From an uncultured Pirellulaceae bacterium (GTDB lineage Bacteria; Planctomycetota; Planctomycetia; Pirellulales; Pirellulaceae), in the NCBI GenBank assembly GCA_938010615.1, contig CALLUY010000177.1, forward strand, positions 1 through 46,802: 46,802 nucleotides of DNA, read 5' to 3'. The notes beneath the pieces were generated by a model. It was not told the origin of the DNA and searched no databases. It worked only from the letters and a program-made list of their open reading frames with translations. This document shows positions 10,451 to 30,852 of this stretch, piece by piece; the stretch's first letter is position 1; each line of letters opens with the position of its first letter. A program made the position numbers and the translations under genes.

Positions 10451-10534
10451 TGGTTTTCGGTTTTCGGTGTGCGGTGTGCGGTGTTCGGTGTTCGGTGTTC
10501 GGTACTCGGTACTCGGTACTCGGTACTCGGTACT
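10451..10534 (+). repeat. tandem heptamer array A (12 units)
   Basis: Twelve contiguous 7-bp units: TGGTTTT, CGGTTTT, CGGTGTG twice, CGGTGTT three times and CGGTACT five times. Read on the minus strand towards the isomerase start they run GTACCGA, ACACCGA, AAACCGA and end two bases before the ATG. The first 21 bases recur inverted in array B with one mismatch. Confidence 0.95.
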
Positions 10535-27795: not shown

Positions 27796-28917
27796 ATGAG
27801 CGAATTTGATCAATGGATCGCCGATCGCACCCGCAACTTTGACTCCAGCGGCATTCGCAAGATGTTCGACCTAGCGGCCAAGCTGGAAGATCCGATCAAC
27901 CTTTCGATTGGCCAACCGGACTTCGACGTGCCGCCTCCGATCAAAGAAGCGTTGGTCAAAGCGATTCAGGATGGCAAGAACGGCTACACGCTCACGCAAG
28001 GCATCACTCCGCTACGTGAGAAAATTCAAGGCATCGTCGATGACGAACACGGCCATTCGGATCGGCAGGCTTTTGTCTGTTCGGGAACCAGCGGCGGTTT
28101 GATGCTGTCGATCATGGCGACCGTCAATCCAGGCGACGAAGTGATCTACTTCGATCCTTTCTTCGTGATGTATCCCGCGATCATCGAGCTTGCTCAGGGC
28201 AAATCCGTTCCGGTCAGTATCTATCCTGATTTCAAAATCGACATCGAGAAAGTCCGCGCTGCGATTACGGATAAAACAAAGCTGATCATTCTTAACAGTC
28301 CTTCGAACCCGACGGGCGTCTGTTTCTCGGAAGAAGAAATCAAAGCTGTCGCGGAGCTTGCCGCTGAAAAAGGCATTTGCCTCGTATCAGATGAGATCTA
28401 CAGCAAGTTCGTTTACGACGAGCCTTATGTTTCGGCTGCGAAATACAATCCAGACGCGATCGTGATCGATGGGTTTTCGAAGACTTACGCGATGACGGGA
28501 TTGCGACTGGGATTCGTTCATGCTCCCAAGGCTTTAGTGGAAACGATGCTGAAGATTCAGCAGTACACTTTCGTTTGTGCTCCGGCGTGTGCGCAGTGGG
28601 CAGGTGTTGTGGCGTTGGACTACGACATGACTCCGTACGTTGATGCCTACCGCGCGAAACGAGACCGCATCATTGAAGGCATCGGTGACAAGTACGAGAT
28701 CGTTAAACCTGGCGGCGCGTTCTACGTCTATCCAAAGTTGCCTTGGGGCGACGGCGGGAGCTTCGTGGAGAAAGCCATCGAAAACAACTTGATGGTGATT
28801 CCTGGCAACATCTTCAGCGGGCAGGACACTCACTTCCGGATTTCATATGCTGCCAGTGCGGAGAAGCTGGAAGCGGGAATCGAAGTGCTCAATCGTCTGG
28901 CAGATGAGAAAAATTAG
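27796..28917 (+). CDS. class I/II pyridoxal-phosphate aminotransferase
   Basis: The 373-residue fold-type I enzyme transfers an amino group, probably between an amino acid and 2-oxoglutarate. Visible sites are LSIGQPDFDVPPPIKEA near residue 36, GYTLTQGITPLRE near 63, NSPSNPTGVCFSEEEI near 165, SDEIYSKFVY near 197, and SKTYAMTGLRLGF near 228 with the Schiff-base Lys. RISYAAS near 350 carries the Arg that binds the substrate carboxylate. Substrate specificity cannot be read from sequence. The stop codon TAG lies inside the first AATTAGG heptamer of the array that flanks the next gene. Confidence 0.9.
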   Translation: MSEFDQWIADRTRNFDSSGIRKMFDLAAKLEDPINLSIGQPDFDVPPPIKEALVKAIQDGKNGYTLTQGITPLREKIQGIVDDEHGHSDRQAFVCSGTSGGLMLSIMATVNPGDEVIYFDPFFVMYPAIIELAQGKSVPVSIYPDFKIDIEKVRAAITDKTKLIILNSPSNPTGVCFSEEEIKAVAELAAEKGICLVSDEIYSKFVYDEPYVSAAKYNPDAIVIDGFSKTYAMTGLRLGFVHAPKALVETMLKIQQYTFVCAPACAQWAGVVALDYDMTPYVDAYRAKRDRIIEGIGDKYEIVKPGGAFYVYPKLPWGDGGSFVEKAIENNLMVIPGNIFSGQDTHFRISYAASAEKLEAGIEVLNRLADEKN

Positions 28918-28939
28918 GAATTACGAATTGAGAATTAGG
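28912..28939 (+). repeat. heptamer array D (left arm of the four-helix-bundle cassette)
   Basis: Four units AATTAGG, AATTACG, AATTGAG and AATTAGG. Bases 28917-28939 match the reverse complement of 29344-29366 at 21 of 23 positions. The stop codon of the aminotransferase lies in the first unit. Confidence 0.9.
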
Positions 28940-28953
28940 AGTTTTTGGTTGCG

Positions 28954-29310
28954 ATGAAAGAGGACAATGTCGTCCAGAAAAAGAGTTATGCCTTCGCGGT
29001 GAGAATTGTGAAAGTTTATCAGCACTTGGCTGAATCCAAGCGAGAGTACGTGTTGAGCAAGCAGCTATTGCGGAGCGGAACTTCGATCGGAGCCAATGTT
29101 GAAGAAGCGATTGGTGGCCAGTCCGGCAAGGATTTTTATGCAAAACTGAATATTTCCTACAAAGAGGCTCGCGAGTCTCACTACTGGATTCGACTTCTTC
29201 GCGACACCGAATACCTCACAAAAAATCAATCTGATTCACTTTTGCAAGACGCAGAGGAGCTGTTGAAGATCATTGGGAGCATCCTCAAAACACTTCGAGA
29301 GAAAGATTAG
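28954..29310 (+). CDS. four helix bundle protein (S23/23S rRNA IVP family)
   Basis: The 118-residue protein matches the four-helix-bundle family first described from 23S rRNA intervening sequences (PF05635/TIGR02436): SYAFAVRIVKVYQHL, LSKQLLRSGTSIGANVEEA near residue 37, KLNISYKEARESHYWIRLL near 66, and a final helix. The same fold is used by Avd proteins of diversity-generating retroelements, but no reverse transcriptase is present. ATG at 28954 is preferred to TTG at 28945. It is bracketed by inverted heptamer arrays, its stop codon lies inside the right-hand array, and it is not inside an rRNA gene. Biochemical role unknown, probably nucleic-acid binding. Confidence 0.85.
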   Translation: MKEDNVVQKKSYAFAVRIVKVYQHLAESKREYVLSKQLLRSGTSIGANVEEAIGGQSGKDFYAKLNISYKEARESHYWIRLLRDTEYLTKNQSDSLLQDAEELLKIIGSILKTLREKD

Positions 29311-29371
29311 GAATTGGAAATTGAGAATATGGCATGTCAAATACCTAATTCATAATTCGTAATTCCAAATT
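29305..29371 (+). repeat. heptamer array E (right arm of the cassette)
   Basis: First a forward part, GATTAGG, AATTGGA, AATTGAG, AATATGG, which supplies the TAG stop of the four-helix gene; then an inverted part, CCTAATT, CATAATT, CGTAATT, CCAAATT, ending 6 bases before the prmC start. The two parts themselves form an inverted pair around an 11-base spacer. Confidence 0.9.
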
Positions 29372-29377
29372 CCACCT

Positions 29378-30262
29378 ATGTCTGAACAAGCAACCAATCA
29401 ATGGACCCTTCAGCGTTTGCTGGAATGGACGACCACTCACTTCAATGAGGCCGGTTCTGATTCGTCGCGACTTGATGCGGAAGTATTGTTGGCTGAGGCG
29501 CTGCAGTGCCAGCGAATTGAACTCTACACTCGCTTCGCCGAAGTTCCCCCTGCTGAGCCGTTGCAGAAGTTTCGCGATTGGGTGAAGCGTCGAGCTGCCG
29601 GCGAGCCGGTGGCGTATCTGGTTGGGCACAAAGAATTCTATTCGCTGAAATTCAAAGTCACTTCGGCGACGCTGATTCCGCGTCCGGAAACGGAACACCT
29701 GATCGTGGCGGCGCTTGAGGTTTGCAAAGGATACGAAAAACCGATTCGCATCATCGACGTTGGCACTGGAAGCGGCTGCATCGCCGTGACGATGGCGACT
29801 CAACTGGACAAAGACTACGTCATTGCGGCGACCGACATTTCGCTAGATGCACTGGCAGTCGCACGTGAAAACGCGGAAGCTCACGAAGTCGATTCGAGGA
29901 TTCGATTCTATGAAGGTGATTTGCTGGATGCGCTTCCCGAAGGAAGCAAGCCGGTTCACTTGATCGTCAGCAATCCTCCGTACATCGGGCGATGTGAGGT
30001 GGATACGGTCGAAGCAACCGTGAAGGATTTCGAACCCGACGCAGCACTTTTCGCTGGCGAACAGGGGACGGAAATCATCGAACGTTTGATTCCTCAAGCA
30101 GAAAAGATGTTGCTGCCCGGAGGCCATTTGATTTTCGAAGCCAGTGACTCGACGATGGACCGGTGTGTTGAACTGGTGAACCAGTCGGCACTGGAGTTTG
30201 TCGAAGTCATCAATGACTACGCGGGTTTGAAACGAATCTTGGTCGCAAAACAGAAAGCTTGA
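29378..30262 (+). CDS. prmC: release factor glutamine methyltransferase
   Basis: The 294-residue SAM-dependent enzyme methylates the Gln of the GGQ motif in peptide release factors. The N-terminal helical domain (RLLEWTTTHFNEAGSDSSRL, DAEVLLAEAL) precedes the methyltransferase fold with IIDVGTGSGCIAV near residue 126 and the catalytic SNPPYIGRCE near 197. The context is a plus-strand run of genes, but prfA is not adjacent. The 5' flank is the heptamer array, so the usual ribosome-binding site is replaced by CCACCT directly before the ATG. Confidence 0.9.
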   Translation: MSEQATNQWTLQRLLEWTTTHFNEAGSDSSRLDAEVLLAEALQCQRIELYTRFAEVPPAEPLQKFRDWVKRRAAGEPVAYLVGHKEFYSLKFKVTSATLIPRPETEHLIVAALEVCKGYEKPIRIIDVGTGSGCIAVTMATQLDKDYVIAATDISLDALAVARENAEAHEVDSRIRFYEGDLLDALPEGSKPVHLIVSNPPYIGRCEVDTVEATVKDFEPDAALFAGEQGTEIIERLIPQAEKMLLPGGHLIFEASDSTMDRCVELVNQSALEFVEVINDYAGLKRILVAKQKA

Positions 30263-30272
30263 GAGACTCGCT

Positions 30273-30791
30273 ATGGCTGATGTTGATTTGGAAGACGACT
30301 ACGACGAAGGTTTTGAAAAACGCGATGTGCAGAAAATGTTGCTCAAGAGCTTCATGGTTGTCGTCTTTTGCTACACGCTGTTCATGACCGGCATGGCGGT
30401 GATCCTGTGCACCGTATTTTATGAATTTGCTCAAGCCGCGACGCTCGTTGAAGACGAATTTGTTCGCGAGCTCAATGAAAACTCTGCTGAGCTATTCAAG
30501 CGCAGTCGATATTTGCCGTTTGTTGCTTTGTCATCGCTGTTCAGTTTTGGTTTGGGTTGGTTGGTCGTTCGGTTGGCTCCATTTTCAAAAATGGTGCATG
30601 CCGCGGCTTTGGTATTGCTCGTGGCGGCAACGATGTTCGTGTTCGCGACGGGTGAAAAAACGCCTGCCGAACTGCAGCGTGTGGCGATGATCATGGTCGC
30701 TGCCGGACCGATTTCGTTGCTGATTGCTGCTCGGTTGGCCAATGGCGGCGGATCAGGAACGAGTGAAGAAGAATCGAGTACTGAGTACTGA
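30273..30791 (+). CDS. hypothetical membrane protein
   Basis: The 172-residue protein has an acidic N terminus (ADVDLEDDYDEGFEKRD) and four hydrophobic segments at about residues 28-56, 80-100, 106-125 and 135-153. I recognise no family. It begins 10 bases after prmC. The last codons, encoding SSTEY, and the TGA stop are supplied by the GAGTACT heptamer array, so the C terminus has been altered by the repeat and the ancestral end is unknown. Confidence 0.65.
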   Translation: MADVDLEDDYDEGFEKRDVQKMLLKSFMVVVFCYTLFMTGMAVILCTVFYEFAQAATLVEDEFVRELNENSAELFKRSRYLPFVALSSLFSFGLGWLVVRLAPFSKMVHAAALVLLVAATMFVFATGEKTPAELQRVAMIMVAAGPISLLIAARLANGGGSGTSEEESSTEY

Positions 30792-30852
30792 GTACTGGGT
30801 ACTGGGTATCGCACTGCACACTGAAAACTGCACACTGAAAACTTCACACTAA
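30776..30852 (+). repeat. tandem heptamer array C
   Basis: Units GAGTACT three times, GGGTACT, GGGTATC, then a 5-base remnant and ACACTGA, AAACTGC, ACACTGA, AAACTTC, ACACTAA. The array starts inside the end of the upstream gene and is followed by eight C residues and the trkH ATG at 30861. The unit order GTACTGA, ACACTGA, AAACTGC parallels arrays A and B with T in place of C. Confidence 0.9.

Follow-up and report, generated by a model that had tools for sequence, protein, structure and literature searches.

What is a single gene of the PF05635 family doing between two mirrored sets of heptamers, in the space that separates an aminotransferase gene from prmC? The arrangement is found in a contig (C177) of an uncultured Pirellulaceae bacterium, whose 46,802 nucleotides are referred to below as the window; the source genome (G000) is available as a 4.7-Mb draft in 221 contigs, with a completeness of 84%. 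An earlier note, made from the letters of the window alone, had proposed a "mini mobile cassette". We consider it probable, at roughly 65%, that the segment is a member of a family of tiny selfish cassettes, each made of a PF05635 gene and of inverted arrays, mostly of 7-bp units, that are specific to the protein subfamily. This reading is built on the architecture of the segment, its recurrence, the covariation of arrays and proteins, the existence of unoccupied sites, the replacement of sequence at a cas1–cas2 junction, and dispersed arrays without a gene, one type of which (GTACT) co-occurs with its protein.

Layout of the cassette and fold of its protein

The cassette (28912-29371, about 0.46 kb) holds a single PF05635 gene enclosed by inverted heptamer arrays. 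Three arrays are present, in the order +, gene, +, −, and the features of the locus are as follows:

27796-28917, + strand: class I/II aminotransferase, the upstream host gene
28912-28944, + strand: left array (AATTAGG AATTACG AATTGAG AATTAGG), overlapping the aminotransferase stop
28945-29310, + strand: PF05635 gene (23S rRNA-intervening sequence / S23 / four-helix bundle), with a TTG start or an ATG at 28954
29299-29328, + strand: degenerate direct copy of the left array (87% direct repeat), over the cassette stop
29339-29371, − strand: right array, an inverted copy of the left array
29378-30262, + strand: prmC, the downstream host gene

The segments 28917-28939 and 29344-29366, which the earlier note had described as inverted copies, do match at 21 of 23 positions. 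Across 389 random placements of equal geometry within the window, inverted 23-nt matches reached 16 at most, and a chance inverted repeat is thus ruled out. A repeat search extended the arms to 28912-28944 and 29339-29371 (33 nt, 85% complementary). As also claimed, the stop codon of the aminotransferase gene (28915-28917) falls inside the left array. The stop of the cassette gene (29308-29310) does lie in an array copy, the degenerate direct one, and not in the inverted right array where the note had placed it by merging two arrays into one. An AGGAG motif within the left array (28937-28941) precedes the cassette ATG at 28954, and only 6 nt separate the end of the right array from the ATG of prmC.

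At the RNA level, the predicted fold of 28905-29380 pairs both arrays and leaves the gene in the loop (z = −3.2, equalled by 0 of 100 shuffles). A known RNA family was ruled out, as an Rfam scan of 28600-29700 returned no family at E ≤ 1.

The family assignment of the gene was borne out: the protein matches PF05635 with E = 6.4e-29 and 100.7 bits, compared with a curated cut-off of 33.8. Its predicted structure has four helices, with a predicted local distance difference test (pLDDT) value of 95.6, and aligns with PDB entry 2rld (protein BT_0352) at a template modelling (TM) score of about 0.9 and 53% identity in the structural alignment. The model also matches the PF05635 structure 2gsc, and resembles the Avd structures 4dwl (TM up to 0.77) and 8ub7. 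Both PF05635 entries contain five chains. In the accessible portions of two papers, a Xanthomonas PF05635-type protein is described as a pentameric toroid (PMC4990558) and the family is compared to Avd (PMC10053308).

Recurrence of the arrays and their match to protein subfamilies

The case found in the window is real and representative of a general pattern. The test set comprised 141 PF05635 genes (31 from the genus and 110 from the phylum) that have 150 nt or more of flank on each side; the 200 nt to the left were aligned with the reverse-complemented 200 nt to the right. Scores of at least 30 were obtained for 104 of the 141 genes (18/31 in the genus, 86/110 in the phylum), compared with 8/699 permuted partners and 0/423 displaced windows of the same loci; in direct orientation, 27 of the 141 reached that score. 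Together with the unoccupied sites and the AATT arrays of close relatives described below, these inverted flanks give good support to the suggestion that the arrays are ends of a mobile element. Matches at a lag of 7 nt were also more frequent in PF05635 flanks (0.358 and 0.357) than in controls (0.253). When 282 flanks were scanned for periodicity, the best period was 7 in 56 of them, 8 in 14, 9 in 9 and 6 in 2, and six control flanks passed the scan. The median arm measures 32 nt (interquartile range 28-39), or about four to five units of 7 nt.

The genome that harbors the window has four PF05635 genes. The three others lack AATT arrays and are flanked by inverted arrays of other units. A scan for a period of 7 also revealed such differing units next to many PF05635 genes of the genus. 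Hence, AATTAGG arrays as a mark of every PF05635 gene, an extension that the earlier note had contemplated, were rejected, and inverted flanks as such stood.

AATT arrays do mark the close relatives of the window protein. A search of a species-level genome collection yielded at least 528 relatives, and the best 80 (57-79% identical) were analyzed. Their titles span at least 15 phylum-level groups, including Planctomycetota, Bacteroidota, Verrucomicrobiota, Nitrospirota, Desulfobacterota, Cyanobacteria, Chloroflexota and Patescibacteria; one relative, in contig C372 of G006, belongs to the same genus and is 79% identical. Chains of AATT with 7-bp spacing flank the gene on both sides in 72 of the 80 (left 75, right 74), and the distance between the outermost AATT motifs is 393-648 bp, with a median of 438. 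A stricter, oriented unit was found on both sides in 54 loci, on one side in 16 and on neither in 10. Inverted scores of at least 30 were reached by 64 of the 77 relatives with enough flank, compared with 1 of 231 displaced windows. Permuted partners within this subfamily also scored high (206/383 at 30 or above) because the unit is common to its loci.

Array and protein vary together. Among the 128 of 166 loci from all subfamilies that scored at least 30, median array similarity was 0.14-0.16 for protein pairs less than 50% identical, 0.20 at 50-60%, 0.49 at 60-70%, 0.58 at 70-80%, 0.64 at 80-90% and 0.67 above 90%, the top bins being inflated by close pairs that are orthologous insertions. 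Other PF05635 subfamilies have different units of 6-9 bp. Altogether, the repeat unit goes with the protein subfamily.

Several loci depart from the common layout. In L261, L291 and L301 the array ahead of the gene has the opposite sign to that in most loci, as though the gene had been inverted between its arms. L127 and L128 have apparent 6-bp units rather than 7-bp units, and two PF05635 genes are in close tandem (L189, G108:C1:594893-595645).

Arrays without a gene are also present, and the window contains two sets of them:

10502-10534: gene-less GTACTCG heptamer array
30777-30850: gene-less arrays of GTACTGR units followed by CACACTGAAAACT-type units, at a later gene junction

The latter have no counterpart at the equivalent junction of G040, the closest relative found; their units resemble those of other PF05635 cassettes in this genome. 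The GTACTNR motif, which is the unit of a cassette in contig C30, has 81 matches in the genome and 0 when reversed, and one of its 14 clusters contains the cassette gene. Across the genus, GTACT arrays are found in 10 of 28 genomes, and the cognate protein (at least 71% identical, the next best being 35%) in 7, all within those 10: p = 1e-4, a value that ignores shared ancestry of the genomes. In other words, the arrays occur in 7/7 genomes with the cognate protein and in 3/21 others, and the protein in 0/18 genomes without arrays. The three genomes with arrays and no cognate protein are drafts, 71-87% complete. Contigs C83 and C153 have inverted pairs of AATT arrays with no gene, and the C153 pair (L008, about 1500-1605) consists of inverted AATTAGG arrays amid apparent tRNA genes. 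The label "non-autonomous", which the earlier note had offered as a possibility, would fit such gene-less arrays better than the copy that bears a gene.

Might the arrays be independent dispersed repeats, similar to repetitive extragenic palindromic (REP) elements or simple-repeat hot spots, where PF05635 genes tend to land? The majority of the arrays listed in the genus do lie away from PF05635 genes, and some genomes with AATT arrays have no window-type protein. Such a view is, however, difficult to reconcile with a unit that depends on the protein subfamily, with the distribution of GTACT arrays described above, and with arrays that are mirrored around the gene (+ before, − after) in 49 of the 54 loci where both signs were scored. 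We therefore consider it very unlikely.

Occupied sites, unoccupied sites and boundaries

In G040, whose aminotransferase and PrmC are 93% and 88% identical to those of the window, the order purF, aminotransferase, prmC and next gene is kept, and the cassette is replaced by a spacer of about 216 nt with neither gene nor arrays. A second junction, between argG and a permease gene, is informative across the genus. Six genomes have a PF05635 cassette there, with a gap of 442-594 bp; one copy is broken by a stop codon, and that of G001 is on a separate contig end. The PF05635 gene is absent from fifteen genomes that show both neighboring genes, in which the gap is 24-383 nt: three have 24 nt, ten have 87-144 nt, and one each has 201 and 383 nt. 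Five loci that do not show the junction are left out of these counts. The 201-nt spacer (L326, in G015) resembles decayed arms after gene loss.

The cleanest comparison of occupied and unoccupied sites is provided by cas1–cas2 junctions on cyanobacterial plasmids, examined in the four records spanning both genes, out of nine matched. In plasmids of Nostoc sp. UHCC 0870 and N. edaphicum, cas1 and cas2 are 2 nt apart or overlap by 1. In plasmids of Nostoc sp. TCL26-01 and Anabaena cylindrica, the two genes are separated by a cassette in antisense orientation (L350 and L351). One array encodes the final residues of Cas1 and the other stops a few nt before the cas2 ATG, which indicates that target sequence was replaced. 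Both occupied plasmids may descend from a single insertion. On these two plasmids the cassette replaces the C-terminus of Cas1, with a possible bearing on CRISPR adaptation. Protein relatives were detected in 25 plasmid records (11 of them named Nostoc), of which these two were inspected; a plasmid search at the nucleotide level returned no relatives of the window cassette.

Boundaries tend to coincide with gene ends. On the left, a same-strand stop overlaps the boundary or is no more than 10 nt away in 48 of 64 cases; on the right, a same-strand start is found within 10 nt of the boundary in 28 of 62. The open reading frames behind these counts are mechanical calls. The upstream neighbor is co-directional in 59/62 cases versus a baseline of 144/190 (p = 4e-4), while the downstream neighbor, with 47/57, does not differ from the baseline. 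Survival of harmless insertions would account for placement at junctions; the upstream orientation bias is not explained by survival alone.

That bias admits another explanation, in which the cassette is an RNA-level module and not a mobile element: through pairing of its arrays within the transcript, or through their binding of the protein, a small self-regulating mRNA would be cut from host operons, and spread would be due to ordinary gene transfer alone. The complementary arms and the predicted pairing with the gene in the loop are in keeping with this possibility, and RNase III is described to excise the 23S rRNA counterpart of Coxiella burnetii in the portion of PMC4990558 available. The argG–permease site provides a further argument: arms selected by eye differ through divergence between species and are still paired within species. 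For 4 of the 6 species the own partner gives the best match in its row, the exceptions being G040 and G020. The explanation does not fit easily, however, with protein relatives that have like units and sit at many different junctions in many phyla, with the dispersal of gene-less arrays, or with cas1–cas2 cassettes that are antisense to the host operon. We regard it as unlikely.

A conventional DNA transposon remnant, mobilized by a transposase acting in trans, would also have terminal inverted repeats and no known nuclease within the element. Unlike DNA transposons and insertion sequences, however, the cassette is not accompanied by a target-site duplication: in 72 bounded loci direct matches were at chance for k = 2-8, and insertion with target duplication was rejected. 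Complementarity of host sequence past the arrays was at chance in the same loci. Loss of target sequence at cas1–cas2 and cassette ends that change along with the PF05635 protein are further difficulties. The cassette protein has no transposase domain, PF05635 being its only match, in a scan not aimed at transposase families. A transposon remnant is, in our opinion, extremely unlikely.

A selfish cassette thus remains the preferred reading, and a number of observations weigh against it. Movement itself has not been observed. The absence of target-site duplication is one such observation, and PF05635 is the sole Pfam family match of the window protein, which leaves the cassette with no component known to cut or join DNA. 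The empty site that the earlier note had envisaged between aminotransferase and prmC exists in gene order, but the G040 spacer is not alignable with the window and hence the site is not nucleotide-clean; the junction is occupied in one genome and unoccupied in another rather than cleanly inserted, and gain versus loss is unpolarised. Some sites are old and vertically kept, such as argG–permease in the six genomes of the genus and one junction common to several Flavobacteriaceae. Of the genes tested, 37/141 scored below 30, and 24 of these below 24; seven of the 24 belong to the GTACT subfamily, which has a longer C-terminus. With a right flank of 330 nt two of these seven reach 30 (L002 from 14 to 48, L097 from 23 to 38) and five do not. 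The flanks of L092, the PF05635 member of G040, contain no arrays at all. Of the 28 genus genomes, 12 contain AATT arrays, and a window-type protein (at least 79% identical) was found in G000 and G006 only; the AATT pattern is of low complexity and partly self-complementary. The shared ancestry behind the GTACT p value belongs in the same list.

Proposed mechanism and relation to known systems

As a general pattern, the idea of a mini mobile cassette is largely supported; because no transposase domain and no target duplication were found, the mechanism of mobility is inferred. The note's other suggestion, that the arrays may be recognition sites for the protein, has indirect support from the covariation of arrays and proteins and from the co-occurrence of the GTACT type with its protein. 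By analogy with its solved relatives, the protein would form a pentameric ring. The ring might bind its own arrays with about one unit per subunit, as the median arm of 32 nt is near five 7-nt units, and would then bring both cassette ends together, either in DNA or in the transcript. In the latter, the ends could pair as they do in rRNA intervening sequences. Cutting and joining would be supplied by a host activity. Copies would persist where little gets interrupted, that is, at gene junctions, and most would lie downstream of a co-directional gene whose transcript the cassette can ride.

An attractive speculation is that the cassettes make up a distinct class of mobile element, not recognised before, in which one non-enzymatic protein, as a pentameric ring, reads its own arrays with a unit for each subunit and movement occurs at the RNA level, with reverse transcription provided in trans. 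Avd, a structural relative, works with a reverse transcriptase. A match to the reverse transcriptase domain RVT_1 was found in 12 of 15 genus genomes with PF05635 versus 5 of 13 without (one-sided p = 0.03, two-sided 0.05), a borderline correlation that gives a weak hint. A reverse transcriptase beside the cassette was rejected, as the window contig has no RVT_1 match; five are found elsewhere in G000. We consider this class possible, if on the doubtful side. If it exists, rRNA intervening sequences would be a special case that landed in rRNA, and some dispersed bacterial heptamer repeats would be gene-less offspring.

Comparison with known systems situates the cassette. In REP elements and their associated tyrosine transposases (RAYT), one transposase gene has matched flanking repeats, many gene-less copies and cognate pairing. 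The cassette is alike in having one gene, matched flanking repeats, gene-less copies and a pairing of unit and protein, and differs in that its protein belongs to PF05635 and its ends are tandem arrays of 6-9-bp units. A tie between gene-less copies and genomes with the cognate gene is seen for the GTACT type (gene in 7 of 10 array genomes and 0 of 18 others), and the AATT type goes against it (arrays in 12 of 28 genomes, window-type protein in 2). Avd of diversity-generating retroelements shares the four-helix bundle fold and the TM score given above; the cassette differs in that the window contig has no RVT_1 match.

The intervening sequences of 23S rRNA have complementary ends, a patchy distribution and sometimes an S23 open reading frame, and have been suggested to be mobile; that of Coxiella burnetii has three tandem GACAGAT heptamers ahead of its open reading frame (PMC4990558, in the part available). 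Those that encode an S23 protein, known from Coxiella, Leptospira and others, resemble the cassette in protein family (PF05635/S23), in their size of about 0.43 kb, in the complementarity of their ends and in a patchy distribution; the Coxiella element also shares the tandem heptamers. Unlike them, the window cassette lies between aminotransferase and prmC and not in an rRNA helix, and neither subfamily-specific inverted arrays nor dispersed gene-less arrays are among the features given in the accessible part of PMC4990558. Further 23S insertions are described, in the portion of PMC2672173 available, as ordinary transposase elements or short sequences without an open reading frame. A location outside rRNA and the lack of a transposase domain make the cassette neither a strict intervening sequence nor a REPtron, though its layout resembles both. 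It looks like a barely described type of selfish element related to rRNA-gene insertions, and there is a chance that the family is a distinct class.

In Geobacter metallireducens, paired opposite-strand arrays of 3-5 hepta- or octanucleotide units, present in multiple copies, were interpreted as sites of unidentified global regulators or of IHF/HU (PMC2700814, partial text). As described, these multicopy pairs of short-unit arrays are alike; the part of that paper available draws no link to PF05635. In the literature covered, which mostly lacks subscription papers and preprints, no paper was found that presents matched arrays as typical of PF05635 genes in general.

In many bacteria, PF05635 proteins carry the label "four helix bundle protein" and no assigned function, and short tandem heptamers are recorded as unexplained repeats or regulator sites. 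The arrays link both, each protein subfamily having its own unit. The identity and mobility of rRNA intervening sequences and S23 proteins can now be tested directly, with small proteins, two solved structures and candidate binding sites at hand. In one Arthrospira, four helix bundle genes with best matches in Chloroflexi are listed with the genes unique to the strain (PMC8700078, in part). Protein relatives of the window gene also occur in two phage records, and four helix bundle genes of Flavobacterium columnare are listed within a predicted phage region (PMC5524665, in part).
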